A stretch of 64,000 nt of DNA from an uncultured Desulfatitalea sp. (GTDB lineage: Bacteria; Desulfobacterota; Desulfobacteria; Desulfobacterales; Desulfosarcinaceae), in contig CALMNL010000004.1 of assembly GCA_937868765.1 (NCBI GenBank), positions 1,500,749 through 1,564,748 of the forward strand. The letters are read 5' to 3'. A program made the position numbers and the translations under genes. The notes beneath the pieces were generated by a model. The model searched no databases. It saw nothing but the letters and a program-made list of their open reading frames with translations, and had not been told where the DNA came from. Positions 45,552 to 61,928 of this stretch are shown piece after piece (position 1 is the first letter of the stretch; each line of letters starts with the position of its first letter).

Positions 45552-45579
45552 TTGACAAAAGGCGGGCTGGGGATATTGT
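45552..45579 (+). promoter_or_regulatory. Sigma70-like promoter for the PAS/HisKA gene
   Basis: A perfect TTGACA (45552-45557), a 16-base spacer and TATTGT (45574-45579). The expected transcript start, near 45586, leaves a short leader ending at ATG 45642, which has AAAGGA upstream. This supports 45642 as the start over ATG 45594. Confidence 0.5.
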
Positions 45580-45641
45580 GGAAGAAACTGCGTATGCCCC
45601 CTTGGGACCCGGGGGTTCCAGGATTCAAAGGAATTGCGCTC

Positions 45642-46553
45642 ATGCCCGTCTACGCCTGGATCATTGTGCTGCTCGGCCTGGCCTGGGGGGCTGCTGCGAC
45701 GATATACCTGCGGCGCAAAACCCGGGACCTGCGACGGGCGCAAGCCGGACTGGGCGAGGCCGCCTCGAAAATCGAACGGCTGGAAGCCGAACATCTTCAA
45801 AAAGAAGCTTACCGCGGAAACACCGAAGATCGTCTGCGAGGCTATTTACAGCTACTGGATGCCCTGATCAACACCATCCCCAACCCTATTTACTTCCAGG
45901 ATGCCCAGGGGATTTTCCAGGGATGCAACAAGGTTTTCGCCAAAGAGATTCTGGGGCTGACCCGGGATCAGATCATCGGACGGCGTCCGCTGGAGATGCC
46001 CGATCAGATTCCGCCCGATCTGGCCGCCACGTATCAGCGCCAGGAGATGATCATGGCCCGCAAAGGCGGCGGCCACAGCTTCGAAGCCCAGGTGCATTGC
46101 GCCGACGGGGCGCGCCGGGATTTTCTCTTCAGCATGGCCCCCATCCAAAATCCCGGAGTGGACGCCATCGGCACCGTGGTGGTACTCTCCGATCTGACCG
46201 AGAAGAATCGAGCCGCCCGGGACCGGCTGCAGAAAGAGAAGCTGGAAGGGGTCCTGGAAACTGCGGGGGCGGTGTGCCATGAATTCAATCAGCCGCTCCA
46301 GGCATTGTCCGGTTTCCTGGAAATCCTGGCGGTCCAGCGGAATGCTTCCGAGGGCGGACCTGTCATGGAAAGAGCCTTGGCCCAGATCGAACGCATGCGG
46401 GGTATCACCGCCAAACTCCAGGGCATCACCCACTATGAAACCATGCCTTACGGTGAAAGGACCAAGATCATCGACATTCACAAGTCTTCCGAGGCCGGCG
46501 CTGCCGGAGAAGAAAAATGCGCGGGCGGGCCGGCGGGGAACGCTCCAAAATAG
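45642..46553 (+). CDS. PAS-HisKA membrane protein lacking the kinase ATPase domain
   Basis: A 303-residue protein. One N-terminal membrane helix (about 4-23), a coiled-coil linker (to about 65), a PAS domain (about 72-190: IPNPIYFQDAQGIFQGCNKVF) and a dimerisation/phosphoacceptor region with H213 in CHEFNQPLQALSGFLEIL. It then ends with GITHYETMPYGERTKIIDIHKSS and a short polar tail. The N, G1 and G2 boxes of the ATPase domain are absent. The stop is followed by non-coding sequence, so this looks like the natural length. It may be phosphorylated by another kinase, or act as a scaffold. Confidence 0.85.
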   Translation: MPVYAWIIVLLGLAWGAAATIYLRRKTRDLRRAQAGLGEAASKIERLEAEHLQKEAYRGNTEDRLRGYLQLLDALINTIPNPIYFQDAQGIFQGCNKVFAKEILGLTRDQIIGRRPLEMPDQIPPDLAATYQRQEMIMARKGGGHSFEAQVHCADGARRDFLFSMAPIQNPGVDAIGTVVVLSDLTEKNRAARDRLQKEKLEGVLETAGAVCHEFNQPLQALSGFLEILAVQRNASEGGPVMERALAQIERMRGITAKLQGITHYETMPYGERTKIIDIHKSSEAGAAGEEKCAGGPAGNAPK

Positions 46554-46968
46554 AGACTCTTCAATACCGTATTGGCGTCCAAAAAAAGAACTGTAATTTC
46601 CTCTTCTTTCGATTCGGAACAGCCGGCGCCGGGTTTGTATGTGCATAAATACCAATGAGTTGTATTTTCCTCCGACCCGGTTTGGGGGCGGGATGGCACC
46701 AGACCGGAGGCAAAAGCGGAACAGTCGGTTCCGGTGCTGGGATGTAAATAAAATTTAAGTGTTTGATTTTTTGACCGATTGTAAGGTGGCACGCGTTTTG
46801 TTATGGAGCGTTCCACAAATAGGACGCGACGCAAAGGAACAGCCGATGCGCCAGGTGTACCAGAGGACCCAAACGGATGCGGCATCTTGGTAGAAACCCC
46901 GGATGTCGGGTCCCCAAAAAGACAACGGGCAGAAACAGATTCTTCTTTAGAAGGAGAGAGAAAAAACG
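46554..46968 (+). other. Intergenic stretch upstream of the aminomutase gene
   Basis: 415 bases, AT-richer than the flanks, with no recognisable gene. The open frame starting at 46803 is a shadow that runs into the aminomutase gene in another frame. It contains the sigma54-like element at 46787-46801. Confidence 0.55.
46787..46801 (+). promoter_or_regulatory. Sigma54-like promoter element ahead of kamA-like gene
   Basis: TGGCACG-CGTT-TTGT matches TGGCACG-N4-TTGC except for the last base, with correct spacing. It lies 168 bases before the start of the aminomutase gene, on the same strand. Confidence 0.4.
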
Positions 46969-48276
46969 ATGCATCGCAACCCTTGTCGCCAGGTAATTGC
47001 CAAAGCCGATGTCAAGACCACATGTTCTCCGGAACTCGGCGCGGAGGTAGAAGAAGAACCTCCAAGCCAGCAGGCTTGCTGTCCATCCGCCTTACAGCCG
47101 CCTGCCAAAAACAGATCCACCCGCAAGCTGGTCATTCAAAGCTTGCCCCTCGACACCCCGACCCCTCGACGCCGTTTCAAACAGTGCTACTACCCCAACA
47201 TCACCGAGCGCCAATGGAACGACTGGCAGTGGCAGATCGCCAATCGTGTGCGCGGACTGGGTCAGCTCGAAAGTTTTCTGCGCCTGACTCCCCAAGAGAA
47301 AATGGCGGCCGAGTGCCTGCAAAACAAGCTGCCCCTGGCCATTACGCCCTACTATTTGAGCCTGCTGGTGGGGCATGCCGCCGATTATCCCCTGCGGCGC
47401 ACGGTGGTGCCGGTTATCGACGAGTTCGTGAAAATGGAAGGGGAGGACGACGACCCCCTGGGAGAAGAAAACCAAAGCCCGGTACCGGGACTCGTGCATC
47501 GCTATCCCGACCGGGTCCTGTTTTTGACCCTCGATTTCTGTTCCACCTACTGCCGTTACTGCACCCGCTCCCGGGTGGTGGGCCACGGCCGGCTCTTCTT
47601 CAACCGCCGGCGCCTGGAAAACGCCCTGGAGTATATTCGCCGTACCCCCACCATCCGCGACGTGCTGTTGTCGGGCGGAGACCCCCTGACCCTCAGTGAC
47701 GCGCGTCTGGATTGGCTGTTGACCCGATTGCGACAGATCAAGCATGTGGAGATCATTCGCATCGGCACCAAGATTCCGGCCGTGCTGCCCCAGCGCGTGA
47801 CGCCCCAACTGGTGCGCATGCTCAAGCGCCATCACCCCCTGTGGATGAGCCTGCACTTCACCCATCCGGACGAGTGCACGCCCGAAGCCTACCGGGCCTG
47901 CCAGCGGCTGGCCGATGCGGGCATTCCATTGGGATCCCAAACCGTGCTGCTGCGCGGCATCAACGACTCGGTGGAAACCATGCGCAGCCTGGTGCATCAT
48001 CTGCTCCAGATGCGGGTGCGGCCCTACTACCTCTACCAGTGCGATCCCATTTCCGGTTCCGCCCACTTCCGCACCCCGGTGCAAACAGGTGTGGATATCA
48101 TCCGCGGCCTGCGGGGCTTTACCAGTGGTTACGCCATTCCCACCTATGTCATCGACGCTCCCGGTGGCGGCGGCAAGATTCCGATCACGCCCGATTACTG
48201 CCAGGGTCGCGACGGCGACAAGGTGGTGCTCAAGAATTACGAAGACAAAATATTCCAATATCCGGATGCCCTCTGA
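46969..48276 (+). CDS. KamA-family radical SAM enzyme, probable lysine 2,3-aminomutase
   Basis: A 435-residue radical SAM/PLP enzyme, with GAAGGAGA shortly before the ATG. The cluster cysteines are C191, C195 and C198 (CSTYCRYC). The PLP lysine is K403 in PGGGGKIP. The residues that bind the lysine side chain in clostridial lysine 2,3-aminomutase (D293 and D330, with PLP K337) have counterparts D359 and D396 at exactly the same spacings of 37 and 7 residues. Glutamate 2,3-aminomutase has Lys and Asn at these places. An N-terminal extension of about 60 residues is Cys- and Glu-rich. It should convert L-lysine to beta-lysine. Confidence 0.88.
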   Translation: MHRNPCRQVIAKADVKTTCSPELGAEVEEEPPSQQACCPSALQPPAKNRSTRKLVIQSLPLDTPTPRRRFKQCYYPNITERQWNDWQWQIANRVRGLGQLESFLRLTPQEKMAAECLQNKLPLAITPYYLSLLVGHAADYPLRRTVVPVIDEFVKMEGEDDDPLGEENQSPVPGLVHRYPDRVLFLTLDFCSTYCRYCTRSRVVGHGRLFFNRRRLENALEYIRRTPTIRDVLLSGGDPLTLSDARLDWLLTRLRQIKHVEIIRIGTKIPAVLPQRVTPQLVRMLKRHHPLWMSLHFTHPDECTPEAYRACQRLADAGIPLGSQTVLLRGINDSVETMRSLVHHLLQMRVRPYYLYQCDPISGSAHFRTPVQTGVDIIRGLRGFTSGYAIPTYVIDAPGGGGKIPITPDYCQGRDGDKVVLKNYEDKIFQYPDAL

Positions 48277-48286
48277 TGAGAGTGAC

Positions 48287-48326
48287 GCCGAAGATCGAGG
48301 CCTGAAGCGAGGCCTCGATCTTCGGC
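48287..48326 (+). other. 17-bp perfect RNA hairpin downstream of the aminomutase gene
   Basis: 48287-48303 and 48310-48326 are exactly complementary, with the six-base loop GAAGCG. It starts ten bases after the kamA-like stop. No U-run follows. It may protect the 3' end of the aminomutase mRNA or separate expression of the genes on either side. Confidence 0.8.
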
Positions 48327-48351
48327 ACGTACGTCCGGCCGCGATGGATCA

Positions 48352-48373
48352 GCCCCTTTGAAAGGGGCGTTTT
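48352..48373 (+). terminator. Short intrinsic terminator-like hairpin
   Basis: GCCCCTT-TGA-AAGGGGC (48352-48368), then G and four T. The short T-run makes it a weak terminator that would partly separate the aminomutase gene from the three genes that follow. Confidence 0.5.
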
Positions 48374-48470
48374 GCGTTCAGGCGGTTGTGGCCAGCAGTC
48401 GGATTTGCAAAACAGCCGCTTCGATGTCGCGGCCTGCCGGGGCATTCGCGCCGGAAAGGAGGCCGATGGT

Positions 48471-49046
48471 ATGAGTGGTTCATGGAATGCGATCAACGGT
48501 CAGGGAATTTCAGGGGCGGTGACCGCCGCTACGCACGACCAGAGCCGGTTATGCAGTGAGTGCGCCCGGGCCGGCCGCACCTGCTGCCAGGGACACGAAA
48601 TTTACGTTACCTGGGGCGATTGCCGCAGGATCGGCTATCATACCCAGCGCCGGGATTTTTACGAGTACCAGGGATGCGACGATCTGGCCTACGCCGATCA
48701 GACGGAAGATCCCATCTGGCAACAACATGTCTTCCGGCCGGACGGCAGCCGCCGGGTGCTCAAACGCAAGGCGAACGGCGACTGCTGCTTTCTTTCGCCC
48801 CAGGGTTGCCAACTGCCGCTGACTGTGCGACCCTTGGTTTGCCGCCTCTTTCCCCATACCTACTCGGCAACGGGGATTTTCGAGGGCTGGGACCAGGAGT
48901 GCCCGGCCGCGCGGGCCATCGCCAAGGTAAGCCTGGAGATCGGCATTGCCGGCGTGGCTGAAGAGGAGGCGGCCCGATGGCATCAATTGCTTTACGACGA
49001 GGTGGTGTGGGAGGGGCTTGTCGATGAAAGTTGGATTAACTTATGA
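48471..49046 (+). CDS. YkgJ-like cysteine-cluster protein
   Basis: A 191-residue protein from ATG 48471, with AAGGAGG eight bases upstream; the longer frame is discounted. It has the cysteine spacing of the YkgJ/UPF0153 zinc- or iron-chelating family: CSECARAGRTCCQG, then GDCCFLSPQGCQLPLTVRPLVCRLFP, and a late cysteine in WDQECPAAR. About ten cysteines in all. Its last 23 bases overlap the first ligase gene, so it is coupled to it. It may bind a metal cluster or modify partner proteins. The true activity is not known. Confidence 0.82.
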   Translation: MSGSWNAINGQGISGAVTAATHDQSRLCSECARAGRTCCQGHEIYVTWGDCRRIGYHTQRRDFYEYQGCDDLAYADQTEDPIWQQHVFRPDGSRRVLKRKANGDCCFLSPQGCQLPLTVRPLVCRLFPHTYSATGIFEGWDQECPAARAIAKVSLEIGIAGVAEEEAARWHQLLYDEVVWEGLVDESWINL

Positions 49047-50037
49047 CCTGCGCTCCGATTATCTCGAGGCCGGATACGGAGAAGAAGAGACGGCCGAGTT
49101 CGATCGGGAAGAGACCATCGAAGCCCTGGAAAAGGCGCTCATCGCCCTGGGGTACGCCACCGACCGCATCGGCCACATCCGGCACCTGACCCAGCGCCTG
49201 GCCGCCGGAGACCGCTGGGACCTGGTCTTCAACATCGCCGAAGGTCTGTACGGCATCGGCCGCGAAGCCCAGGTGCCGGCTCTGCTCGATGCCTACGACA
49301 TTCCGTATACCTTCTCCGATCCGCTGGTGATGGCCCTGACCCTGCACAAAGGCATGACCAAGCGCGTGTTGCGCGACGCCGGCATCCCCACCTGCGACTT
49401 CGCCGTGGTGGCCGGCCCGGACGACCTGCGCGCGGTGCACTTCTCCCCGCCTTACTTCATCAAGCCGGTGGCCGAGGGCACCGGCAAGGGGGTTTCCCCC
49501 GACTCGATCATCCGGCGCCGGGACGATCTGGGGGCCGCCTGCCGCAACCTCATGGTCACCTTCCGCCAGCCGGTGCTGGTGGAGAAGTTCCTGCCCGGCC
49601 GGGAGTTCACCGTGGGGGTCGTCGGCACCGGCGCCGATGCCCGGGTGCTGGGCACCATCGAAGTCCATCTGCTGCAATCCGCGGAACCCGAGGTTTACTC
49701 CTACATCAACAAGGAGCAGTGCGAAGAGCGCGTGCGCTACGAACTGGGGCGCCCCCAGGAGGACCCGGTGGTGGCCCAGGCCGAAAAGGTGGTCCTGGAT
49801 GCCTGGCGGGTGCTGGGTTGCCGGGATGCCGGCCGGGCCGACATCCGCTGCGATGCCGACGGCAACCCCCAGTTCATGGAGGTCAACCCCCTGGCCGGGT
49901 TGCATCCCGAGCACTCCGACCTGCCTATCATCTGCACCCATGTGGGCATCCCCTTCGTCCAACTCATCGAACGCATCATGAACTCGGCCCGCCAGCGCAT
50001 CCGGCGGGCGCAGAAGAGTTCGGAGAAGGGGAAGTAA
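49024..50037 (+). CDS. D-Ala-D-Ala-ligase-like ATP-grasp enzyme, copy 1
   Basis: A 337-residue ligase from ATG 49024, with GGGAGGGG six bases upstream. Features of the Ddl fold: KVGLTYDLR at the start, DLVFNIAEGLYGIGREAQVPALLDAYDIPYTFSD, YFIKPVAEGTGKGVS as the ATP loop, VLVEKFLPGREFTVGVVG, and the metal site MEVNPLAGLHPEHSDLP. Unlike in real Ddl, the N terminus has a long acidic insert (EEETAEFDREE). It probably joins an amino acid or similar carboxylate to an amine. The next ligase gene starts one base after its stop. Confidence 0.88.
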   Translation: MKVGLTYDLRSDYLEAGYGEEETAEFDREETIEALEKALIALGYATDRIGHIRHLTQRLAAGDRWDLVFNIAEGLYGIGREAQVPALLDAYDIPYTFSDPLVMALTLHKGMTKRVLRDAGIPTCDFAVVAGPDDLRAVHFSPPYFIKPVAEGTGKGVSPDSIIRRRDDLGAACRNLMVTFRQPVLVEKFLPGREFTVGVVGTGADARVLGTIEVHLLQSAEPEVYSYINKEQCEERVRYELGRPQEDPVVAQAEKVVLDAWRVLGCRDAGRADIRCDADGNPQFMEVNPLAGLHPEHSDLPIICTHVGIPFVQLIERIMNSARQRIRRAQKSSEKGK

Positions 50038-50038
50038 A

Positions 50039-51049
50039 ATGCGCATTGCGGTGGTGCACAACGCCTTGAGCAACCAGAGTTCCCCCGACGAACAGGATGT
50101 GCTGGTCCAGGCCGATGCGGTCACGGCGGCCCTCGAACGGCTGGGCCATACCACCGTGCGCCTGACCTGCGACCTGAACCTTTTTGCCGTCCAAAAGCAG
50201 CTCGTGGCCGCACGGCCCGACCTGGTCTTCAATCTGGTGGAGTCCCTGGCCGGCACGGGCCGCCTGCTGCACTTCTTTCCTTCCCTGCTCGATGCCCTGG
50301 GGCTGCCCTATGCCGGCGCCTCGGCCGAAGCGCTCTTTCTGACCTCCAACAAGGCTTTGGCCAAACAGCGCCTTTCGGCCGGCGGACTCGCCACACCGGC
50401 CTGGGTGGGTCCCTGCGACGGCCGCCGCCTGTGCAAGCTGCCGCCCAAAGAGACATGGCCCGACCGCTGGATCATCAAGTCGGTATGGGAGCACGCCAGC
50501 ATCGGCCTGGACGAGCAGGCCCTGGTAACGCGCGCCGAAACCCCCGGCCTGCCCGAGCGGTTGCGACGGCGCGCCCCCTATTTGGGCGGCCATTGCTTCG
50601 CCGAAACCTTCATCGAGGGCCGCGAGTTCAATCTCTCGGTCCTGGACGGCCCCCAAGGGCCGCGGGTGCTGCCGCCCGCCGAGATCATCTTCGAGGGCTA
50701 CGGCGACGACCGGGCCAGGATCGTGGACTACAACGCCAAGTGGGACGAATCCTCCTATGCCTATCACCACACCCCCCGGCGCTTCGACTTCGGCCCGGAG
50801 GACGGTCCGCTGCTCCAGCGCCTCCAGGATCAGGCCCTGGCCTGCTGGGAGCTCTTCGACCTGTCCGGCTACGCCCGGGTGGACTTTCGGGTGGACCTGT
50901 CCGACCGTCCCTGGATCCTGGAGATCAACGCCAATCCCTGCATCGCGCCGGACGCCGGTTTCGCCGCCGCCATTGCGCGCGGCGGCCTGAGCTATGACGC
51001 GGCCATCGGGGCCGTTATCGCCGCCGTTCCCAGGGTAACCGCGTTTTGA
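50039..51049 (+). CDS. D-Ala-D-Ala-ligase-like ATP-grasp enzyme, copy 2
   Basis: A 336-residue ligase of the same fold as copy 1 but clearly divergent: RIAVVHNALSNQSSPDEQDV, LVFNLVESLAGTGRLLHFFPSLLDALGLPYAGA, RWIIKSVWEHASIGLDEQALV, CFAETFIEGREFNLSVLDG, and the metal site WILEINANPCIAPDAGFAAA. Its 3' end (VTAF, stop) is part of a direct repeat; a second copy lies 1.15 kb downstream. Two successive ATP-grasp ligases suggest stepwise assembly of a small peptide-like product. Confidence 0.87.
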   Translation: MRIAVVHNALSNQSSPDEQDVLVQADAVTAALERLGHTTVRLTCDLNLFAVQKQLVAARPDLVFNLVESLAGTGRLLHFFPSLLDALGLPYAGASAEALFLTSNKALAKQRLSAGGLATPAWVGPCDGRRLCKLPPKETWPDRWIIKSVWEHASIGLDEQALVTRAETPGLPERLRRRAPYLGGHCFAETFIEGREFNLSVLDGPQGPRVLPPAEIIFEGYGDDRARIVDYNAKWDESSYAYHHTPRRFDFGPEDGPLLQRLQDQALACWELFDLSGYARVDFRVDLSDRPWILEINANPCIAPDAGFAAAIARGGLSYDAAIGAVIAAVPRVTAF

Positions 51050-51057
51050 AATCAGCC
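51030..51057 (+). repeat. Direct repeat, left copy (spans the 3' end of ligase 2)
   Basis: 28 bases covering the last codons and stop of ligase 2, matching 52184-52211 in 25 of 28 positions. The pair brackets the AT-rich sulfotransferase segment. Confidence 0.85.
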
Positions 51058-51307
51058 TTTCAAGATCCTCAACAAATAATCGTTACCCCAATCGGCCCTA
51101 AAGCGCTTGACCTTGATGCTCTGTTGCTTAAGTGACGTTCGTTTATTAATCCTGTTCGAGGCTATCTGTCTGAACACGATCAATCGCCTTATCTCCCTGC
51201 TAACCAGTAGAAAAAGGGAATCTCATTACCCTGAGCGGCGTATCAAATATTCTGCATTGAAACAAAAGCAACAACAATTGTGCATCACCGGATGGACACA
51301 AATTCAC
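51058..51307 (+). other. AT-rich non-coding part of the inserted segment
   Basis: 250 bases with no supported gene. A forward frame of 88 codons (51107-51373) runs antisense into the sulfotransferase 3' end and shows no family features. Base composition is far from that of the flanking ligase gene. Confidence 0.55.
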
Positions 51308-52129
51308 CTAAGGAGCAAATTGTTGAATATAATCGACGGATGTTATCCGATTGATCGGTTTCCGACTAAATAATGAATAATCATTCTCATAGCCAAAAAA
51401 GTTAATGTAATCGTGAAAAATCGGCTTGAAAAACGCAATATCTTCGTCAGTAAACCAATTTCTCCACTCCCCATATGATTTTGATCGTTCAACGCGTTTC
51501 AACTTCTCGGATACCGTGACGTTACAGTTTATGTTAAAGCCCAGATAGTCAACCAAATCATTTATATGACCATCAATATAATTTTCATATTTGACAATAA
51601 ATAGTTCAGCTGAGGTCTTGGCAAAATCAACGGTATTCAGACATGATTTTTTTAAACCAAAGCCGATGCCGAAAGATGCATTCCTTCCCAACAGGGTGGC
51701 GGTTTCCTCAAATAGATATTTAACCGATATGGCATCGGGTTTTTCAACTTTCAATTTGATCAGCTTTAAAAACTTGTTAAAAGATTGAGAATCATTTTGT
51801 TTTTGAAACAGGTTGGCTCGATATAATAACCGGCTTACAAGGTTGTCACGCGGGTCTCGGACAATCAGAATTGCTTTTTCAATCCGTGAGGTATCTATGC
51901 CGAATTGATGTATTTGGCCTATCAGGATTTTTGCCAACGTATGGTCATAACCCGGCTTAACTGAATAGACACCTTCAAGATGCTGCTTCTGATGGGGTTC
52001 AAATATTGTATCCACCTTTCCGGCGAGTCCTTGGAGAACACTGCTAAATAATGCTGTCGTGCCAGATTTTGCTTGTCCTATAACGGCGATTCTCATGAGA
52101 AGCCTACATCGATTAGGAGATAACGTCAT
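51308..52129 (-). CDS. Sulfotransferase-family protein in an AT-rich insertion
   Basis: A 273-residue protein on the strand opposite to its neighbours. ATG 52129 is chosen, with AGGAGG six bases upstream. The PAPS loop GQAKSGTTALF lies at about 18-28, and ILIVRDPRDNLVSRLLYRANLF is the 3'-phosphate region with the R-D-P-R pattern. SKSYGEWRNWFTDEDIAFF near the end resembles the KG-x-x-GxWKxxFT motif of true sulfotransferases. It is AT-rich, unlike the ligase and GNAT genes, so it was probably acquired by transfer. The acceptor is unknown. Confidence 0.83.
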   Translation of the reverse strand: MTLSPNRCRLLMRIAVIGQAKSGTTALFSSVLQGLAGKVDTIFEPHQKQHLEGVYSVKPGYDHTLAKILIGQIHQFGIDTSRIEKAILIVRDPRDNLVSRLLYRANLFQKQNDSQSFNKFLKLIKLKVEKPDAISVKYLFEETATLLGRNASFGIGFGLKKSCLNTVDFAKTSAELFIVKYENYIDGHINDLVDYLGFNINCNVTVSEKLKRVERSKSYGEWRNWFTDEDIAFFKPIFHDYINFFGYENDYSLFSRKPINRITSVDYIQQFAP

Positions 52130-52183
52130 TTTTGGCCTCCTACCATAAATAAAGAAAGATAGAAAGATAGGAAGCGGGTAACT

Positions 52184-52211
52184 CCAGGGTAACCGCATTT
52201 GGAAATCAACC
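52184..52211 (+). repeat. Direct repeat, right copy
   Basis: 25 of 28 bases match 51030-51057; the three differences include the base that destroys the stop codon. It lies 106 bases before the start of the GNAT-HDAC-GNAT gene, at the outer edge of the inserted segment. Confidence 0.85.
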
Positions 52212-52317
52212 GTCGTTCATTCCTTCGGTTGACAATCCGCACATTTCATTCAACACTGCATCGACGGCATAGCGCCAAAGGCCGCGGGCCGAAGCAAACA
52301 CAGATGAGGAATTGACC

Positions 52318-54570
52318 GTGCTCAAAATTCGCCGAATTTACGATGACGTCCTGCCCGTCAATCGCGAAATCATCCAGCAGGTTCAGACGATCCTTCGCAC
52401 CCGCTTCGGCGCGGCGCCCGAAGAAGAGATCGCCCAGATCGGCGAAAAACTGCGCAACCCCTTCAAACAGCGGTTCCGCACCATCCTGCTGGTGGCCGAA
52501 AACCTGCGCCGCCGGGTGCAGGGTTTCGCCATGCTGCTGCATGAACCGGAGATCGGTTTCTGCTACCTGGACTGGATCGCCCTGGCCGGCGGCAAGACCG
52601 GCGGCGGGCTGGGCAGCGCCCTCTATGACCGGGTGCGCGGCGAGGCCGTGGCCCTCGAGGCCAAAGGGCTTTTCTTCGAGTGCCTGCCCGATGAGGCCGG
52701 GCAATGCCCGGACGAGGCCATGCTTCGTCAGAACCGCCAGCGGCTGCGCTTCTACGAACGCTACGGCGCCCGGCCCATCGTCCATACGGGCTACGAATTG
52801 CCCATCAAGCCCGGCGATACCTGCATGCCCCATCTGGTATACGACGGCCTGGACCGGGGAAGCCCGCTGCGCCGGGAGTTCGCGCGCAAGGTGGTGCGGG
52901 CCGTCCTCGAACGCAAATACGCCGCCTACTGCCCCCCCGACTACGTGGACCGGGTGGTGGCCTCGTTCAAGGAGGACCCGGTGGCCCTGCGGGCTTATCG
53001 CTACGTCAAGCCCGAAGCGGTGCACACGGCCGTCGATAGCCGCTCCCTGGAGCAGATCGCCCTGGTGGTCAACGACAAGCACGACATCCACCATGTCCAC
53101 GAGCGCGGTTACGTGGAGGCGCCGGTGCGCGTGCGCAGCATCCTGGTGGCCCTCAACCCCAGCGGCCTGTTCGCCCTGAGCCGGCCGCGCCCCTTCGCCG
53201 ACAAACACATCACGGCCGTGCACGACACCGACCTCGTCAACTACCTGCGCCGGGCCTGCGAGGAGATGCCGCCGGGCAAATCGCTCTATCCCTATATCTT
53301 CCCCATCCGCAACCAGACCCGGCCGCCCAAGGAACCGTCGGTGCTTTCGGGATACTACTGCATCGACACCTTCACCCCCATCCACCACGAGGCGTACCCG
53401 GCCGCGCGCCACGGCGTGGATTGCGCCTTGACCGCCGCGGCCCAGATCCTGGCCGGCCGTCGCATCGCCTATGCCCTGGTGCGGCCGCCCGGGCATCACG
53501 CCGAGCGCCGCGCGTTCGGGGGGTTCTGCTACTTCAACAACAATGCCATTGCCGCCCAGTTCCTCAGCGCCCACGGCCGGGTGGCGATCCTGGACATCGA
53601 TTACCACCACGGCAACGGCCAGCAGGAGATCTTTTACCGCCGGGCCGATGTGCTCACCGTCTCCATCCACGGCCATCCCCAGTTCGCTTACCCTTACTTC
53701 ACCGGATTCGAAGACGAGCGCGGCGAAGGCGAAGGCGAAGGCTTCAACTGCAATCTGCCCCTGCCCGAAACCGTGGACGGGCCGACCTACGCCAAGGCCC
53801 TGGAAAAAGCACTCCAACGCATCCGGGCCTTCAAACCCCAGTTCCTGGTGGTGGCCCTGGGCCTGGACACGGCCAAGGGCGACCCCACCGGCACGTGGCA
53901 ACTTTTGGCCAGGGATTTCGAAACCAACGGCCGCCTGATCGGGGAAATGAACCTGCCCACGCTGGTGGTCCAGGAGGGGGGCTACCGCAACCGCACCCTG
54001 GGCGCCAACGCCCTGGGCTTCTTCAAAGGTCTGGCGGCGGCCAGCGCCCGGGTCACGGCGCGCCAGCAGCCCGAGGCCGACACCATGCACGGCCTGCGCT
54101 GGCGCTACGTGCTGCAACCCGAAGATCCCGAACGCATCCGGCGGCTGGTGACCCTCACCGGCTACTTCAACCCCGATGAGATCGGCATCGCCGAAGAATT
54201 GGTCCAAGAGCGCCTCGCCAAGGGCGAGCCCAGCGGCTATTACTTCGTCCTGGCCGAGCACTACGGCCGCCTGGCCGGCTACACCTGCTACGGCCCCATC
54301 GCCGGCAGCGCCAACAGCTTCGATCTGTACTGGATCGCCGTGCACCCCGACTTCCAGCGCCGCGGCCTGGGTCGTCGCCTCATGCGCGAAAGCGAACGGC
54401 TGATCCACAAGGCCGGCGGCCGCCGCATCTACGTGGAGACCTCCACCCGGGCCCAGTACGCCAGCACCCGCATCTTCTACGAAAACTGCGACTACCGCCA
54501 GGAGGCGGTCCTGGATGATTTCTACGCGCCGGGCGACGGCAAGGCGATTTACTGCAAGGTGATGAAATGA
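52318..54570 (+). CDS. Three-domain GNAT - histone-deacetylase-like - GNAT protein
   Basis: A 750-residue protein. GTG 52318 has GAGGA seven bases upstream; a TTG at 52312 is too close to it. Residues 1-190 look like a GNAT domain (FRTILLVAENLRRRVQGFAML, then GGGLGSALYDRV). Residues 330-580 are an HDAC/acetylpolyamine-amidohydrolase domain with PPGHHAE (about 391), zinc ligands in LDIDYHHGNGQ (about 428) and LGLDTAKGDP (about 516), and EGGY, so it appears active. Residues 590-750 are a second GNAT: IAVHPDFQRRGLGRRLMRESE and a DFYAPGDGKAIYCK ending. It could acetylate and deacetylate an amine such as beta-lysine. Confidence 0.9.
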   Translation: MLKIRRIYDDVLPVNREIIQQVQTILRTRFGAAPEEEIAQIGEKLRNPFKQRFRTILLVAENLRRRVQGFAMLLHEPEIGFCYLDWIALAGGKTGGGLGSALYDRVRGEAVALEAKGLFFECLPDEAGQCPDEAMLRQNRQRLRFYERYGARPIVHTGYELPIKPGDTCMPHLVYDGLDRGSPLRREFARKVVRAVLERKYAAYCPPDYVDRVVASFKEDPVALRAYRYVKPEAVHTAVDSRSLEQIALVVNDKHDIHHVHERGYVEAPVRVRSILVALNPSGLFALSRPRPFADKHITAVHDTDLVNYLRRACEEMPPGKSLYPYIFPIRNQTRPPKEPSVLSGYYCIDTFTPIHHEAYPAARHGVDCALTAAAQILAGRRIAYALVRPPGHHAERRAFGGFCYFNNNAIAAQFLSAHGRVAILDIDYHHGNGQQEIFYRRADVLTVSIHGHPQFAYPYFTGFEDERGEGEGEGFNCNLPLPETVDGPTYAKALEKALQRIRAFKPQFLVVALGLDTAKGDPTGTWQLLARDFETNGRLIGEMNLPTLVVQEGGYRNRTLGANALGFFKGLAAASARVTARQQPEADTMHGLRWRYVLQPEDPERIRRLVTLTGYFNPDEIGIAEELVQERLAKGEPSGYYFVLAEHYGRLAGYTCYGPIAGSANSFDLYWIAVHPDFQRRGLGRRLMRESERLIHKAGGRRIYVETSTRAQYASTRIFYENCDYRQEAVLDDFYAPGDGKAIYCKVMK

Positions 54571-54609
54571 AATAGACAGGGCCGGGGTCATTCCAGCGCC
54601 GAAAACATT

Positions 54610-54649
54610 GAGGCCGCACTGCACGCGAGGTGCAGGGCGGCCTCTTTAT
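54610..54649 (+). terminator. Intrinsic terminator after the GNAT-HDAC-GNAT gene
   Basis: GAGGCCGC pairs with GCGGCCTC, and inside it CTGCAC pairs with GTGCAG around a five-base loop, giving a 14-bp stem with one unpaired A and G. TTTAT follows. It lies between convergent genes and may act on both. Confidence 0.75.
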
Positions 54650-54677
54650 CAATAAGCTTTTTGGGAGGCAATGGCTG

Positions 54678-55106
54678 CTATTCCGGCTTTTCGCTGGTCC
54701 ACTGCCAGCTGGCGCCGTCAGCCACGCGTTTGATATTGATACGATGCGCCACGCGGCCCCCATTTTCTACAGAATAACTCACTTCAGCATCGCAGGGTAC
54801 CAACATTTTTTTGATACTCACCTCTTTGCCATCCGTCCCAATGATAAGGGTTTCAGGGCTTATTCCGAACTTGCCACTCATGGTGAAGATATGCTCGAGG
54901 CTCTTTTTCTCAATGGTGACATTCACTTTGGATAAGACCAGCGGCAGCCCTTCCTCGGTGGAGTTGTTTTTCCGGTGTTCCGGAGGCGCGGCCGAAACCG
55001 GCAGAACCCACCCAAGCAGTAAAATTATCAGTCCGGTGAGCAGGACGTGTTTAAGGGATGGTCTCACAGATTGATTCATCGTATATGCCATCGAGAAGAA
55101 TTTCAT
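54678..55106 (-). CDS. Small exported protein of unknown function
   Basis: A 142-residue protein that I do not recognise. GGGAG lies eight bases before ATG 55106. The N terminus carries a signal peptide with a hydrophobic core, HVLLTGLIILLLGWVLPVSAA (about 20-40). The mature part is short and beta-rich (LPLVLSKVNVTIEKKSLEHIF, TLIIGTDGKEVSIKKMLVPCDAEVSY). One cysteine. It follows pilY1 on the same strand with a strong hairpin between, so it may be a late gene of the pilus operon or independent. Confidence 0.7.
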   Translation of the reverse strand: MKFFSMAYTMNQSVRPSLKHVLLTGLIILLLGWVLPVSAAPPEHRKNNSTEEGLPLVLSKVNVTIEKKSLEHIFTMSGKFGISPETLIIGTDGKEVSIKKMLVPCDAEVSYSVENGGRVAHRINIKRVADGASWQWTSEKPE

Positions 55107-55158
55107 GGTTGTACTCCCATTGGGTTTTTTTACCTAAGCATCAATCGTTTGCCGAGAT

Positions 55159-55192
55159 CCCCATCCCCTCCCCTCAAGGGGAAGGGATGGGG
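55159..55192 (-). repeat. Strong GC-rich hairpin between pilY1 and the next gene
   Basis: CCCCATCCC-C-TCCCCT on one side and AGGGGA-A-GGGATGGGG on the other, with a two-base loop: 15 base pairs and one mismatch. No T-run on either side. It resembles the CCCCTCAAGGGG-type palindromes dispersed in many genomes. Confidence 0.7.
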
Positions 55193-55204
55193 CTTGTTAG
55201 CTTT

Positions 55205-58200
55205 CTATGGACAAGTCAGTGTGTCCGGTGGGGCGGCCACTTTGCCACTTTTCACCGCGCCGGGGTTGTCCTGCTCCAGCGGCTTGATGGCACCGGTACT
55301 GGTCTGGATATAGGCCCGGGAGCCCTCCTCACGGCCCACATGGATGTTGGGCGTGATGGTCATGCCTTGTCCCAGGGAAGATCTTTTGAGCACCAGGGCG
55401 TTGTCGCCGGCCATATCGCTGGTGTCCAGCCCGATGATGGGCAGGTAGTAGGCGGTGCCGGTACGATAGTACAGCACATAAACCTGGCTTTCACCGGAGA
55501 TCACGCAGGGATCATCGGAAGGCGTATAGGTGGTGAAAGTCAACACATCACCGGCCAGCACGGCCTCACCCAGGTTGCGTTCGCCCTTCGCATAGTCGAA
55601 CTCCAGTCGCCAGCCACTGTAATCTTCCTCGATCTTGTCCACCAAGGCCTGGAAGTCGGTATATCCTGTCACGGTTTCGCCGTTGTTGTAGACCTTGATA
55701 TTGGTGGTGTCCAACAGGTCATCGAAGCCCACTTCATTGTAATTGAACTTCTTTTCATCGTTGACGATGGTGTATGGCTCTTTCACTCCATAATAGGACT
55801 GCTGATCGGTATTCAGTTTATCCTCTTGGGAATACAATCGGCCGGTGCCGAAGTAGAGCCAGCGATTGCCGGCCTTGTCGGTGCCGGCGGTGGCCGAGGC
55901 CATGATCGGCTGGCCGTTGTCCAGGTTGCTGCTGATCTTGTCGGTCAAATCCAGCAAGGTGCTGTTGACGGTCCAGTTGGTTGACACTGTTGGGTTGGTG
56001 CCGTTTTCCATGACGATGCGACGCAGCTTGCCGTTCCATCCATCGGTATGGTTGCCGAAGCTGATGCCGAAATAGGCCGCATCGGCGTTGAAGTCCAGGT
56101 TCCAGTCCACGGTGATGGGCTTGGAAACGCTGCTTTCGGCCTCCGGGAAGCGCACCAGATAATAGCCAGCGGATGCAGCGGCAGCCGTATAGGTCTTGGG
56201 GCCGCTGCTGGTGAGGGTTACCACCCGGTGGTTGTTGGCCAGTTCCACCAGATCCACGGCGTACATCGCTGCCTGCTGGGTGCTGGTGCCGTCGATGAGG
56301 GCGTCATAGTTGGCGCCGTTGACACTGGCGCTATCCTTGGAAATCGGTCCTGACCCGAAGAGCAGATACCATTGGTTGGTCTTTTCGGTGTGATTGGCGA
56401 CATCGAAATCACGCATGGGAATCACGCCCGGATGGCAGGTGGTGAAGCCAAGCTCGGGGAAGGCGATTTCGCCCAACAGGATCGGCGGCGCTTCCGGATT
56501 TGTGATATCGAAGATAGCGAAGGCCGAACTCATGGCCTTATCCACAGCAGAGTTATAGAGTCCATCCGATTTGTCGATATCGGCCGCGATTTTGCCGCCG
56601 CCGAAGCGCATGCCGGCCACCAGCACCGTCGCCCAGCCATTGGGGTTGGTCGGATCATTGGCCCCTTTGCTGGGATAGATGCGGGCGTCGAAAATACGTG
56701 GCTGCAGATCCATGTAGTAGACATGCTCGTAATCCGGCTGGGTCCGCCAGTAGAGATGGGGCAGCAGGTTCTGGGGAATATAGGCCCACAGCTCGGCGCC
56801 CAAGTCCCATTGATGGTAAGGACCGCCCGTGGTCACCTCGATACCGGAGGTGTCGTAGGGCTTTAAGGTGAACTCGTTCTGGGTTACATTGAAAAAGCCG
56901 CTGTTGAATGCGTGCACCATGCCGTCGTTGGCGCCCACATAGACCACGTTGCGACGGAACTGGTAGCGTTTATAGAAAGTGGCATACCCCTTGTCCCGGT
57001 AGATCAGGTCAAAATCCTCGGCCGGCGCGCCCACCACGGTGGGGGTGGAGAACACGATGTCGCCCAGGCGCCAGGTTTCGAAGTTACCGTCACCGTTGCC
57101 ATCGTACTGTCGGTTGCGGAAAGCCGCCAGTTCCTGGGCGCCGACAGCGTCGGAACTCTGGTCTTCACCCCGGGTGAAGTTGATCACCCTGCGGATCTGT
57201 CGGCTGACCAGGGGTTGAAAATCGGTGTCGGTAGTTGCGATGGGCGGGCTGTACGGGGCAAAGGCATGGATATAGGCGAAGAAGTCGCCTGGGTCGACCA
57301 CCTGGGACCAGGCCGGATCGGCCAGGGCCACGAAATCCTTGACTTCGCCGCTGTCCGCGGCCATATCGCCATCCGCGTCCGCAAAGGTGAAGATGTAACG
57401 CTGGGCATCGGTGGACCCGTAGGTTCGCTGGTGGGTCGCATCGGTCAAGTTGTTGAGCCAGCCATTGGAAGACCAGAGGAAATTGAGCTCGCTCAATTTA
57501 AATTCGGTTTTGCCGTCTATGGTCAGCGGGCCGGCGTCCGTGGCGTCCAGGATGCCGTTGGCATCCGAATCTCTATATTTTTGAGCGGTTTCGTCCCCGA
57601 ATACGATGAACAGGTCATCCGCCAGGTCCAGTTTATGATTGTTGTTGGTATCCTCGCGCACATTGCCGTGGGCATCGGCCAGAAGGGCGTGGACTTGGCC
57701 GACCCACTTCACGGTCTGTCCGTTCACGGTTTCCGCTGGATAGAAGATGGACTGGTAGATGGCGCCTTCGCCGGACCTGGAGTTGGAGACCACCGAAGCG
57801 GCAGTACCGGAAGAGGCCCGTTTCAAGATGCTTTCGATGGCCGCCAGCAATTGTTTTTCCAGCTCGTAACCATCGTTGGCTTCATAGTAGGTGTCAGGCA
57901 CGCCGTCGCTGTCGGCATCCCACTCCAGGCGCTGGTCGGCCGGATCGGTATAGGTGCCGTTGGGTTTGCCATCGCTGTTCAAATCATCGAAACCGCCGTT
58001 GCGCGCCGCATCCTGCAAAAGACTGCGGCCGTTGGGGTCCTTGTCGAAGGCATACACAGTGTAGAGGATGAGGTTCTGGGCGTCGTTCAGATCCGGCCGC
58101 AGATCCGTGGTGCGGGCATAAAGGGCGACGTCATCGAGATAATCGGTGCCGCCGGATGGATAGTTACAGCCGGAATCGGTGGATTCGTTGCAGGCTGACA

Positions 58201-59938
58201 GATCTTTGCCGTCACCATCAAAATCTTTGAGAGAGCTGGGAATTTTGCTGTCTTTGGTGGAGGCGCCGTCGGTAAGCAGCAAAACAAAGCTTTTGGCGCA
58301 AGGCACCGACTTCTGCGCGGCTTTGTCCCAGTAAGGATCCTTGAGAGAGTTGATGCCGATACCGAACAACTGGGATTGATTGGGATAATCCAGGCCGGTG
58401 GCGACCGCCTCTTGTTTGAAATACTGGGTAGCCACGTAAAAAGCTTCAGACAGAGGCGTCCAGGTGTTGCACTTCTTGCTCTGCAAGTCGGGGAGAAAGT
58501 TGATTCCGAAGCCGTTGTCGATGGTGTTGGCGACATATCCGCCGCTATTGTTGGTGCCGCTGCCGGCATTGAACCACATGTTGCCCCAACGGGCGCGGTC
58601 GCCGATGCGCTGGAGCACGCCGGCCAGGTTGCCCTCGAAGAAATCCAGGGGCTCGATGGCGATGTATTTCTGGATATCGAGCTTGTAGTTGGTGCTGCTG
58701 ACGTTCAGATACCCGGTTTCCGTAACCCCATAGGTATAGCTTCCCTTGTAGGGGGTTGTGGCCGGCCCCGAAGCGCTGGAGAAGGTCTTCCAGTAGGTCC
58801 CATACCCTGTGGCGGCCGATTCGCACTGGTTTTGCTGGTTGCCGCCACCGGTGCGCGAGGTGGCCTTGCCACCCATGAGTACCTTGCGCAGGACATCCAC
58901 ACGACGCATGGCCATCCAGTTCATCCAGTTGCCGTCCCACAGCCCGTTGCTCTTGACCGCCGGCGCAATGGTGGCATCGTTGAGCGTGGCCGAGGCGCCG
59001 GCCAGGGTCTTCACGTTCCAGGTGTTGGTGGCCGGCACGTAGCTGACCTTTTTATAGGTCGGCCAGAAGACGTTGCTGCTGAACTTATAGAAATAGTCGG
59101 GATTAAAATAGCCGTAGTAGCGGGTTCCGGCGGCCTGGTCAATATAGGTGACATACAGGGTCGGGCCTACTGCCTGGCCCACTTCCCGGGACTGGGCCTC
59201 GCGATGGCCGGTGAGCGTCGAGGGAAATGCACTTCCTTCGAAGCGGAAGAACATGGCGTTGCCCGCTGCCCACCCGCCGCGGTTGACGATCTCCTGGACA
59301 ATGGCGGTCAGGTCGGAGGTGCTGTAGCGCATGCCATCCACCCAATCGCCGGGGGTCCAGGCCGCAGAGGCCGCGGTAGCGGTCCGGCTGGAGATATTGT
59401 AAGCGACCGCACTGTCCAGGAAGGCCGCATCGTCGGAGGCCTCCCCCTTGATGACCAGATCGGTGATCACCGAGGCCCAGCTGCCTTTGGAGGTGAATTC
59501 GATGCGGGCCGAAACGATGGTCGCGCCCTGGGGGATGGAGACCTCCTGGAAACGCACGCCGATATAATCGGTGCCGAAATCCAGGTCGTTGGCGCCGGCG
59601 CTGCCATCGCGCATGGCGCCGCCAGACGGGCCCTCTTCCATATCATCCCTGGCCAGGGATACAGGGAAGCTCACCGTGGTGCCGTTATACGGTGTGCCGG
59701 TATAGCCGTCGGCATAGGCCAGGGAGTTCATGCTGCCAGAGTTGTCCAGCATGATCATGATGTTGGGTTTGGCCGAGGTTGAAGCAAAAACCGGCACCTT
59801 GACATAGTCGGCCATAACGGGCGACTGCCAATCGGCATGGCTCGGTGTGGCGAAAGTCCAGGTGATGACGCCCAACAGAGCCAGTCTCATGGCCGTAGTT
59901 TTCGTCTGGTCGATAATTTTAGCGAAGATGCGTTTCAT
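55205..59938 (-). CDS. pilY1: PilY1-like type IV pilus tip adhesin with VWA domain and beta-propeller
   Basis: A 1577-residue exported protein. ATG 59938 is preferred over 59944 because GGAG lies seven bases away. After a signal peptide (to about 35) comes a VWA-like start, IMIMLDNSGSMN (D65, MIDAS DxSGS), interrupted by a beta-rich insert (about 100-260). The VWA part resumes with SFVLLLTDGAS near 555. Calcium-type Asp loops follow (DFDGDGKD, DADSDGVPD, DTNNNHKLD, DSDANGILD). The C-terminal 600 residues match the PilC/PilY1 propeller. PilY1 primes pilus assembly and mediates adhesion. Confidence 0.93.
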   Translation of the reverse strand: MKRIFAKIIDQTKTTAMRLALLGVITWTFATPSHADWQSPVMADYVKVPVFASTSAKPNIMIMLDNSGSMNSLAYADGYTGTPYNGTTVSFPVSLARDDMEEGPSGGAMRDGSAGANDLDFGTDYIGVRFQEVSIPQGATIVSARIEFTSKGSWASVITDLVIKGEASDDAAFLDSAVAYNISSRTATAASAAWTPGDWVDGMRYSTSDLTAIVQEIVNRGGWAAGNAMFFRFEGSAFPSTLTGHREAQSREVGQAVGPTLYVTYIDQAAGTRYYGYFNPDYFYKFSSNVFWPTYKKVSYVPATNTWNVKTLAGASATLNDATIAPAVKSNGLWDGNWMNWMAMRRVDVLRKVLMGGKATSRTGGGNQQNQCESAATGYGTYWKTFSSASGPATTPYKGSYTYGVTETGYLNVSSTNYKLDIQKYIAIEPLDFFEGNLAGVLQRIGDRARWGNMWFNAGSGTNNSGGYVANTIDNGFGINFLPDLQSKKCNTWTPLSEAFYVATQYFKQEAVATGLDYPNQSQLFGIGINSLKDPYWDKAAQKSVPCAKSFVLLLTDGASTKDSKIPSSLKDFDGDGKDLSACNESTDSGCNYPSGGTDYLDDVALYARTTDLRPDLNDAQNLILYTVYAFDKDPNGRSLLQDAARNGGFDDLNSDGKPNGTYTDPADQRLEWDADSDGVPDTYYEANDGYELEKQLLAAIESILKRASSGTAASVVSNSRSGEGAIYQSIFYPAETVNGQTVKWVGQVHALLADAHGNVREDTNNNHKLDLADDLFIVFGDETAQKYRDSDANGILDATDAGPLTIDGKTEFKLSELNFLWSSNGWLNNLTDATHQRTYGSTDAQRYIFTFADADGDMAADSGEVKDFVALADPAWSQVVDPGDFFAYIHAFAPYSPPIATTDTDFQPLVSRQIRRVINFTRGEDQSSDAVGAQELAAFRNRQYDGNGDGNFETWRLGDIVFSTPTVVGAPAEDFDLIYRDKGYATFYKRYQFRRNVVYVGANDGMVHAFNSGFFNVTQNEFTLKPYDTSGIEVTTGGPYHQWDLGAELWAYIPQNLLPHLYWRTQPDYEHVYYMDLQPRIFDARIYPSKGANDPTNPNGWATVLVAGMRFGGGKIAADIDKSDGLYNSAVDKAMSSAFAIFDITNPEAPPILLGEIAFPELGFTTCHPGVIPMRDFDVANHTEKTNQWYLLFGSGPISKDSASVNGANYDALIDGTSTQQAAMYAVDLVELANNHRVVTLTSSGPKTYTAAAASAGYYLVRFPEAESSVSKPITVDWNLDFNADAAYFGISFGNHTDGWNGKLRRIVMENGTNPTVSTNWTVNSTLLDLTDKISSNLDNGQPIMASATAGTDKAGNRWLYFGTGRLYSQEDKLNTDQQSYYGVKEPYTIVNDEKKFNYNEVGFDDLLDTTNIKVYNNGETVTGYTDFQALVDKIEEDYSGWRLEFDYAKGERNLGEAVLAGDVLTFTTYTPSDDPCVISGESQVYVLYYRTGTAYYLPIIGLDTSDMAGDNALVLKRSSLGQGMTITPNIHVGREEGSRAYIQTSTGAIKPLEQDNPGAVKSGKVAAPPDTLTCP

Positions 59939-59992
59939 TTCCATTCTCCATTTGGATTACGAAAATCGGCTTCGGAATGTTTTGAAGGACGC

Positions 59993-60541
59993 CTAAATCA
60001 AATGACGCCAACCGGTCACGACCCGAGCCTGGCTCTTGGCCGGGCCGTTGCCAAGGCCGCTGATGGTGTAAACGATCTGGGCGCCGCCGCCGGCCAGCCC
60101 TTTGCCGCGCCCATGGTACCCTTCGGGAAGCTGAAGGGCGTTTCCCGGAGAGAGGGTGGTGTTTCCGAAGATGGCAACCTGGACAGCTGTTTCAGATAGA
60201 TTGTCCACTTGCATATCGGCTCCGTTGCACGCTTCGTTCAGGTAGAATTCGCTGTTGTGAACCCAAAGATCGCTGGTAGGGCCGTAATTGAAGGGCGGCG
60301 TCTGGCTGCCGAACCCGCGACTTTCGATGTTCTGCTCGATCATTTCGGGTGCCAAGCCGTCGCAAACCGCCTCGGTGGTATACCAGGTCATCTTGTGCAG
60401 CTTGTCGTGGGAGGCCACCTGCAGCTCGATGGTGCTGGTCCTCGTTGCCAGCACACCGAGCACGGTAATTACCATTAATACGAGAATCACAACGATTAAT
60501 GCGGATCCATTTTCGTTTTGAAGATGCGTACGGTATTTCAT
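59993..60541 (-). CDS. pilX: PilX-like minor pilin
   Basis: A 182-residue protein. ATG 60541 is chosen, with AGAGG five bases upstream, over GTG 60547. The N terminus NENGSALIVVILVLMVITVLGVLATRTS is the PilX pattern: a short basic leader, Gly before Ser-Ala-Leu, then a long hydrophobic helix, with Glu near position 5 of the mature protein replaced. Two or three cysteines follow. Minor pilins of the PilVWX group form the priming complex with PilY1, which is encoded directly downstream. Confidence 0.85.
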   Translation of the reverse strand: MKYRTHLQNENGSALIVVILVLMVITVLGVLATRTSTIELQVASHDKLHKMTWYTTEAVCDGLAPEMIEQNIESRGFGSQTPPFNYGPTSDLWVHNSEFYLNEACNGADMQVDNLSETAVQVAIFGNTTLSPGNALQLPEGYHGRGKGLAGGGAQIVYTISGLGNGPAKSQARVVTGWRHLI

Positions 60542-60554
60542 AACCACCTCTGAA

Positions 60555-60962
60555 TTAAATCGTATCGTGTTTGATATAGACCATATTCATGGTTTTGGGA
60601 GCGCCGCGCTCCAGCCAGTTGACCGTGATATTCACCAGCATGGTGTTTTGAAGAAGTGCGTTGCGCTGGACGTTGTAAGTGACCGTATAGTTATCAACCT
60701 GGATGGGGCCATGAATGCCTTCTGTCAGATTATCGTCTGTCATGTAGTCCAACGGTCTGAGGTTCTCGACTTCATTGGCGGCCTCATTGGCTCCCATGGT
60801 CAAGTCGCGCGCCGTGCTGTTCCCGTTGATGGCCGTTACCTGCATGCTGACGGCTGCAAGAATGCCGACGGTGAAGACGAACATGCCAATGATCGCCTCA
60901 ATGAGAGTGAATCCCCGGGCGCAATGATTGTCGCCTAGCATATTTCTAAACTTTCTGTTCAT
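60555..60962 (-). CDS. pilV: PilV-like minor pilin
   Basis: A 135-residue prepilin. ATG 60962 is preferred, with AGGAG seven bases upstream; ATG 60968 is too close. The cleavage motif ARGFTLIEAIIGMFVFTVGILA (G at -1, F at +1, E at +5) is typical of PilV. The short globular part ends in VNWLERGAPKTMNMVYI. It lies between pilW and pilX, the usual order of the minor-pilin operon. Confidence 0.9.
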   Translation of the reverse strand: MNRKFRNMLGDNHCARGFTLIEAIIGMFVFTVGILAAVSMQVTAINGNSTARDLTMGANEAANEVENLRPLDYMTDDNLTEGIHGPIQVDNYTVTYNVQRNALLQNTMLVNITVNWLERGAPKTMNMVYIKHDTI

Positions 60963-60995
60963 GCCCATTCTCCTTGCTGGCCCTACTGGGTGGGA

Positions 60996-61919
60996 TTAAA
61001 GCCCCATATTACGAAATTGAACGGTATGATCCATCAACTGGCGCCGGAAATTGTCCTGATAACCACCGGCCTGGGCGGGCACGATTTGGTTGCTCACCAC
61101 ATACTGGTTCGTATTGCGGTATCTTTGATCAGCGTTGCGGGCCCGCGCCACCATCCAGATGCGCACCATGCGGATGCTGGCGCGGTCGGCCTGGGGATTG
61201 ATGAGACCCGCGGGGCCGTCGGCACTTTCGATCACAAAGTTCCCGCCGGCATCGTTGATATCGACAAAACCGTCGTCATTGGTGTCCAGGTTGGTATCCA
61301 GCAGATTGTCGTTGTTGGAATCCACCGCCCAAATTAAATTGCCGCCGGCGGTTCGGTCCAGCACACCGTCGTTGTCAGAATCGATCGCATAGGCAAACCC
61401 GATAGCTTCGATGCCCTCGGCGACTAATTGGCGCGTCACATTTCCGGCCACGATGACATCCTGCACCAGATCGTTAATATTATCGCTGTTGTCATCATAG
61501 AGGCGATAAGCATGAATCGGTTCGTCCGAAACCCCGTTGCCGCTGGCAGCTGCATTGGTCGGGTCCCAATCGTAGGCTATAATCAACGAGGGGCTGCCTA
61601 ATGGCGCGGCCGTTACCGCTGGAGCTGTCACCTCGTTGGTGATGCTGTAATGCCGTACATCCATGATGCCAAAAAGACCTGATGCTTCTGGGTCGTATCC
61701 CGCAATGCGGATATCCCCTTCCATGATATAGATGGCGCCCCGCAGCTGCTGCTGCAATTGGGCCGTTTCGCGCACCATGGTGGCGTTGCGCTGCTGGCTG
61801 ATGGAGTTGGAGACCATGGCAATTCCCACGATGGAAGTAACAATCATGGCCACCACCAGCTCGAGAAGGGTGAAGCCGGCATTGGTCGTTTTGGGGGGCT
61901 TGTTTTTCTTGGCGTTCAT
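60996..61919 (-). CDS. pilW: PilW-like minor pilin with calcium-loop-like motifs
   Basis: A 307-residue prepilin with the cleavage motif NAGFTLLELVVAMIVTSIVG. The globular part carries RGAIYIMEGDIRIAGYDP, typical of PilW. Near residues 180-220 it holds successive Asp-rich loops: DSDNDGVLDR, DSNNDNLLD, DTNDDGFVDIND. These look like EF-hand or dockerin-type calcium loops. The C terminus (RYRNTNQYVVSNQIVPA) is conserved in PilW. It is encoded upstream of pilV. Confidence 0.9.
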   Translation of the reverse strand: MNAKKNKPPKTTNAGFTLLELVVAMIVTSIVGIAMVSNSISQQRNATMVRETAQLQQQLRGAIYIMEGDIRIAGYDPEASGLFGIMDVRHYSITNEVTAPAVTAAPLGSPSLIIAYDWDPTNAAASGNGVSDEPIHAYRLYDDNSDNINDLVQDVIVAGNVTRQLVAEGIEAIGFAYAIDSDNDGVLDRTAGGNLIWAVDSNNDNLLDTNLDTNDDGFVDINDAGGNFVIESADGPAGLINPQADRASIRMVRIWMVARARNADQRYRNTNQYVVSNQIVPAQAGGYQDNFRRQLMDHTVQFRNMGL

Positions 61920-61928
61920 TTCAGTCTC

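Follow-up and report, generated by a model that had tools for sequence, protein, structure and literature searches.

A GNAT-HDAC-GNAT fusion protein tied to a putative beta-lysine amide pathway in an uncultured Desulfatitalea sp.

Genes of the locus

The window analyzed in this study, a stretch of 64,000 nucleotides from the genome of an uncultured Desulfatitalea sp., contained one open frame of 750 codons on the forward strand (52318-54570) with no internal stops. The frame was already open from 52312, and the GTG at 52318 (MLKIRR...) was the start favored by the alignment of relatives. The encoded protein of 750 amino acids comprised, in order and all on the forward strand, an N-terminal GNAT domain (N-GNAT; 52318-52851, residues 1-178), a conserved helical linker (52873-53052, residues ~186-245), a class II HDAC domain of the acetylpolyamine amidohydrolase (APAH) type (53056-54042, residues ~247-575), and a second, unrelated GNAT domain (C-GNAT; 54085-54570, residues about 590-750).

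Upstream on the same strand, we identified a gene encoding a KamA-type radical SAM lysine 2,3-aminomutase (46969-48276), which matched PDB entry 2a5h with an E-value of 3.2e-135. The radical SAM cysteines were present, and D293, D330, R134, and K337 were retained in comparison with 2a5h; none of the four varied among the 89 aligned KamAs of the pathway. D293 and D330 bind the epsilon amine of the lysine side chain, and both aspartates are replaced in glutamate 2,3-aminomutases. Because every specificity residue of lysine 2,3-aminomutase was retained, beta-lysine is likely the product of KamA and the precursor of the pathway.

KamA was followed on the forward strand by genes for two ATP-grasp amide ligases, named Lig1 (49021-50037; D-Ala-D-Ala-ligase-like; Pfam Dala_Dala_lig_C, E = 1.6e-24) and Lig2 (50039-51049; more divergent; Pfam, E = 3.9e-14). 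The ATP-grasp core was retained in both (R272, D274, E287, and N289 in Lig1; R280, D282, E295, and N297 in Lig2). Against the D-alanine--D-alanine ligase models they scored 151.1 and 88.7 bits (cut-off 243), and all Ddl cut-offs were missed. Lig1 and Lig2 share the catalytic core of Ddl, but differ from it in forming a tandem pair, usually with KamA, and in their altered substrate-end residues. In addition, a second KamA-family gene was observed elsewhere in the same genome (C4:695410-696372), away from the ligases and scoring 348 bits to AblA.

A gene for a CxxCxxCC-type cysteine-cluster protein (48465-49046, forward strand; PF03692, 22.1 bits against a cut-off of 23) followed KamA and overlapped the first codons of Lig1; it was found in some operons only. 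Lig2 was separated from the fusion gene by a sulfotransferase-like gene on the reverse strand (51308-52198; PF00685, E = 5.4e-6) with a GC content of 0.37-0.42, against 0.63-0.68 in its surroundings, and the gap at this position was short in most relatives. This island is a probable recent foreign insertion lying outside the system. Beside the operon, a PAS-HisKA frame without HATPase (45300-46553, forward strand) resembled a truncated or decayed sensor kinase. On the other side, a PilY1-like gene and then pilin-like genes (55205-62549, reverse strand) probably formed a type IV minor-pilin cluster, and the N-methylation motif was found in 60555-60968, the one pilin-like gene tested. Riboswitches or other RNA control elements had no Rfam matches up to E = 1 in positions 44000-56000 of the window, and in 15 related loci no match relevant to the operon reached the Rfam gathering score. 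A role in anti-phage defence was rejected on the lack of any PADLOC model match.

Domains of the fusion protein

The preliminary description of this DNA had proposed two acetyltransferase domains around a deacetylase domain, and this three-domain reading was borne out by Pfam, the AlphaFold2 (AF2) model, Foldseek, and the conserved catalytic residues. Pfam, AF2, Foldseek, and conservation spoke against the refuting case named there, namely outer domains without the GNAT fold or a site for acetyl-CoA: both kept the glycines of the acetyl-CoA loop and the motif-B tyrosine. The two GNATs had no significant sequence similarity to each other. In the full-length model, the individual domains were good and their mutual arrangement was uncertain (pTM 0.57).

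The N-terminal domain had no Pfam match at E <= 1e-3 in the scan of the full protein. When the domain was scanned by itself, the sequence of the window matched Acetyltransf_7 (E = 5.8e-4), and Acetyltransf_1 and Acetyltransf_7 were matched by 27 of 27 aligned relatives (best 8.9e-8). Its AF2 model reached a mean pLDDT of 90.7, and Foldseek returned many GNATs, among them GCN5, PCAF, aminoglycoside 6'-N-acetyltransferase, and 2r7h, with a probability of 1.00 and a TM-score of up to 0.78 by target length. By its modeled fold, the domain can be confidently regarded as a GNAT, although it lies below the Pfam cut-off. It contained a P-loop (G97xG99), a motif B (R142/F145/Y146), and an acidic motif (E121-x-x-P124-D125), and G97, G99, E121, D125, R142, F145, and Y146 showed no variation in 109 relatives. 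In the acetyl-CoA loop (Q/RxxGxG/A), the GxG was invariant, as was the motif-B Tyr, and the first Q/R was not kept. A match to the streptothricin acetyltransferase 3pp9 was weak (E = 0.006) and serves as a lead only. The adjoining linker had the alignment consensus LERKY...CP..Y...DPV.LR..RY, with helices at residues 186-200 and 207-215 in the structure models.

The HDAC domain matched Pfam Hist_deacetyl at residues 266-569 (E = 1.3e-75) and PDB entry 6phr (E = 2.2e-73), and every top Foldseek match was an APAH. The features of class II HDACs and APAHs were all present, namely the HDAC fold, the His dyad, the Asp-His-Asp zinc site, and the catalytic Tyr. The dyad H393/H394, D426, the zinc ligands D428/H430/D517, and Y556 were invariant in 109 of 109 relatives, in agreement with the earlier suggestion, made from the visible ligands and dyad, that the middle domain is probably active. 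The APAHs 6phr, 3q9b, and 9gkz resemble this domain in the HDAC fold, in ~35-40% identity, and in all catalytic residues; however, their chains (~341-362 residues) correspond to the HDAC region alone, whereas the HDAC of the fusion has a GNAT on both sides. Characterized APAHs remove the acetyl group from acetylputrescine and acetylcadaverine (PMC4784309, PMC11532494).

The C-terminal GNAT matched Pfam Acetyltransf_7 (PF13508) at residues 641-727 (E = 1.8e-17, 64 bits against a cut-off of 27). The QxxGxG loop (Q680/G683/G685) and the motif-B Y721 were present, and Y721 and W672 never varied in 135 relatives. The putative D-alanine N-acetyltransferase 2r7h of Desulfovibrio aligned along the entire domain (E = 4.2e-39), but it is a stand-alone protein, whereas the C-GNAT is part of a fusion; we know of no test of the function of 2r7h. 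In other genomes, the C-GNAT ortholog was a separate gene or was joined to Lig2. The fusions to the end of Lig2 (L148, L150, L160, L165, L175, and L181) were open frames of ~510-610 codons, whose NCBIfam matches were mainly to D-Ala-D-Ala-ligase and RimI-like models. One of them also matched the streptothricin acetyltransferase model STAT (E = 4.7e-5), a weak similarity taken as a lead only. Streptothricin acetyltransferases act on a beta-lysine group.

Since the C-GNAT occurs in HDAC-free operons and in fusions with Lig2, it would be the enzyme that carries out acetylation in the ligase pathway, and GNAT-HDAC would have acquired it in the lineage of the window. It corresponds to the last gene of a core operon, KamA-Lig1-Lig2-GNAT, and was joined to GNAT-HDAC in Desulfobacterota and a few Alphaproteobacteria. 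GNAT-HDAC itself is an ancient two-domain unit that occurs across many bacterial phyla.

Distribution of GNAT-HDAC and the core operon

We surveyed 80 GNAT-HDAC loci from other genomes. GNAT-HDAC was fused to the C-GNAT in 28 of them, and this recurrence of the identical architecture rules out an artefact or a chance fusion. At 33 of the 80 loci, including those showing only as much of the operon as the contig reaches, GNAT-HDAC was a separate gene within the KamA-Lig1-Lig2-C-GNAT operon, and it stood alone at the other 19. Some fused copies (e.g., L043, L056, and L061) had no core genes in the stretch examined. The gene set was seen in sulfate reducers, planctomycetes, Bacteroidota, and others. 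Gene order within the operons took at least three forms (KamA-Lig1-Lig2-GNATHDAC-GNAT, KamA-GNATHDAC-Lig1-Lig2-GNAT, and KamA-Lig1-Lig2-GNAT-GNATHDAC); therefore, the association of GNAT-HDAC with the operon is not due to one inherited arrangement.

The genomes with a lone GNAT-HDAC all had Lig1 elsewhere (19 of 19; 15 at >=54% identity, three at 36-37%, and one as a fragment), where it was mostly seen adjoining KamA, Lig2, and the C-GNAT. Among 297 Desulfobacterota genomes, Lig1 was found at E < 1e-41 in 27 of the 28 with GNAT-HDAC and in 77 of the 269 others (Fisher p = 8e-13, a value that ignores shared ancestry), and the 28th had a Lig1 fragment within the operon. These gene contents indicate that GNAT-HDAC depends on the ligase pathway. 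The reverse did not hold, as core operons without GNAT-HDAC alongside had all four genes in 17 of 20 Desulfobacterota loci examined.

When 79 GNAT-HDAC proteins were placed on a tree, fusion to the C-GNAT was limited to two groups, one within Desulfobacterota and one made up of three Alphaproteobacteria-type sequences, and the lone state required at least eight changes over well-supported branches. Neighbor clustering revealed no further conserved partner gene, and lone copies likewise had no recurrent partner; of the extra families, the one looked at that recurred in several loci was a sigma-54 activator, too general to use. Plasmid-borne copies were also considered and rejected, as the only matches had <60% identity and none spanned 80% of the protein.

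Putative role in beta-lysine amide synthesis

Taken together, we propose, at a probability of about one half, that the three domains of the fusion form an enzyme belonging to a conserved beta-lysine amide pathway inside the cell, in which the GNAT-HDAC pair would act on a beta-lysine amine. KamA would convert lysine into beta-lysine, as its invariant substrate residues suggest, and Lig1 and Lig2 would use ATP to form amide bonds, building a small amide or peptide from beta-lysine. The C-GNAT would then acetylate the ligase product, in keeping with its operon position and the Lig2-GNAT fusions. The N-GNAT and the HDAC would add an acetyl group to, and remove it from, one amine of the beta-lysine unit, either timing a sequence of protection, ligation, and deprotection or controlling the fraction of acetylated product. 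Four carbons lie between the two amines of beta-lysine, the same number as in putrescine, and this spacing would suit an acetylpolyamine-type deacetylase. Some known compatible solutes are beta-lysine derivatives, and sodium can control genes for lysine 2,3-aminomutase (PMC9337991); for this reason, the likeliest end product would be an N-acetylated beta-lysine peptide serving as a compatible solute. No osmotic regulator, riboswitch, or transporter was found to be consistently tied to the operon.

Two known pathways share parts of this gene set. The AblA/AblB pathway, by which methanogens, green sulfur bacteria, and Bacillus make the osmolyte N-epsilon-acetyl-beta-lysine, likewise has a lysine 2,3-aminomutase at its first step and acetylation by a GNAT (AblB) at its last. 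In contrast, the present system has two additional ATP-grasp ligases and an HDAC, its KamA scored 482 bits against the AblA equivalog (cut-off 525.4), and AblB (TIGR03827) had no match across the whole genome. With KamA under the cut-off and AblB absent, the system is distinct from the known route to N-epsilon-acetyl-beta-lysine. The synthesis of N-acetylglutaminylglutamine amide (NAGGN) employs a GNAT plus an ATP-grasp enzyme, and similarly yields an N-acetylated small peptide by pairing a GNAT, as a linked or fused partner, with an ATP-grasp ligase. However, a lysine aminomutase is present here, and the NAGGN family model was unmatched by Lig1, Lig2, or the Lig2-GNAT fusions in NCBIfam. In the open-access literature, we found no published account of this GNAT-HDAC architecture or of the KamA/ATP-grasp operon, and an earlier mention is possible.

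The preliminary description also held that acetylation and deacetylation in one chain would make a futile cycle unless the substrates differ or the domains are regulated. Its premise that substrates or timing must differ still stands, but the two GNATs are not equivalent: as the C-GNAT would be an enzyme of the pathway in its own right, any futile cycle would be limited to the N-GNAT/HDAC pair. Since the genome comparison ties the fusion to the beta-lysine gene set, acetylation and deacetylation most likely belong to separate steps within a single pathway. The N-GNAT/HDAC pair may act on the same compound or on different ones. A less likely, more specific version of the proposal is that one chain is both writer and eraser for the same beta-lysine amine, where acetylation would reversibly protect the amine, or provide a set-point control, while the ATP-grasp enzymes form peptide bonds. 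The core operon is found in many genomes that have no GNAT-HDAC, so an obligatory protection step is not general.

A rather unlikely alternative is turnover or recycling, in which the HDAC would do no more than deacetylate the finished or salvaged product, the N-GNAT would take a different amine (e.g., free beta-lysine, for storage), and the fusion would serve co-regulation with no cycle on one compound. This would be consistent with the operation of the core pathway without GNAT-HDAC and with the catabolic role of known APAHs, which permit growth on acetylputrescine and acetylcadaverine (PMC4784309), whereas the retention of the GNAT-deacetylase fusion and its linker over many phyla suggests a shared compound or a channelled step. 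It is improbable that GNAT-HDAC is a polyamine acetylation switch acting on putrescine, cadaverine, or spermidine, with the beta-lysine operon as an incidental neighbor. Although the HDAC domain is nearest to APAHs, the ligase genes occurred in all GNAT-HDAC genomes, even where GNAT-HDAC was placed elsewhere, and the lone copies lacked a recurrent partner. Acetylation and deacetylation of protein lysines by one chain, targeting for example KamA or the ligases, is very doubtful. GCN5 and PCAF were among the best fold matches of the N-terminal domain, and certain bacterial members of the APAH family can remove acetyl groups from lysine derivatives (PMC4784309); however, the GCN5 match is generic to GNATs (~14% sequence identity), and the HDAC falls with small-molecule deacetylases and is linked to a small-molecule pathway. 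It is equally doubtful that one domain is degenerate and non-catalytic, with for example a structural or sensing function. The N-GNAT does have a divergent sequence that scores under Pfam's threshold and has not kept the first Q/R of the acetyl-CoA motif; however, its seven motif residues and the HDAC site are invariant in 109 relatives.

If the fusion does write and erase on the same amine, an enzyme of the HDAC fold would carry out deprotection from within a widespread pathway for beta-amino-acid peptides. The joining of opposite activities in one chain, recurring across phyla, makes the futile-cycle question testable on a small enzyme. The five-component set delineated here (lysine aminomutase, two ATP-grasp ligases, GNAT, and GNAT-HDAC), with its predicted beta-lysine product, also provides a biosynthetic context for bacterial HDACs, few of which have a known natural substrate. 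Additionally, divergent relatives of Lig1 and Lig2 were observed in one frame of ~680-700 codons, an apparent tandem ATP-grasp fusion, at L196 (G304:C134), G254:C66:185340-187289, and G295:C44:46720-48732.
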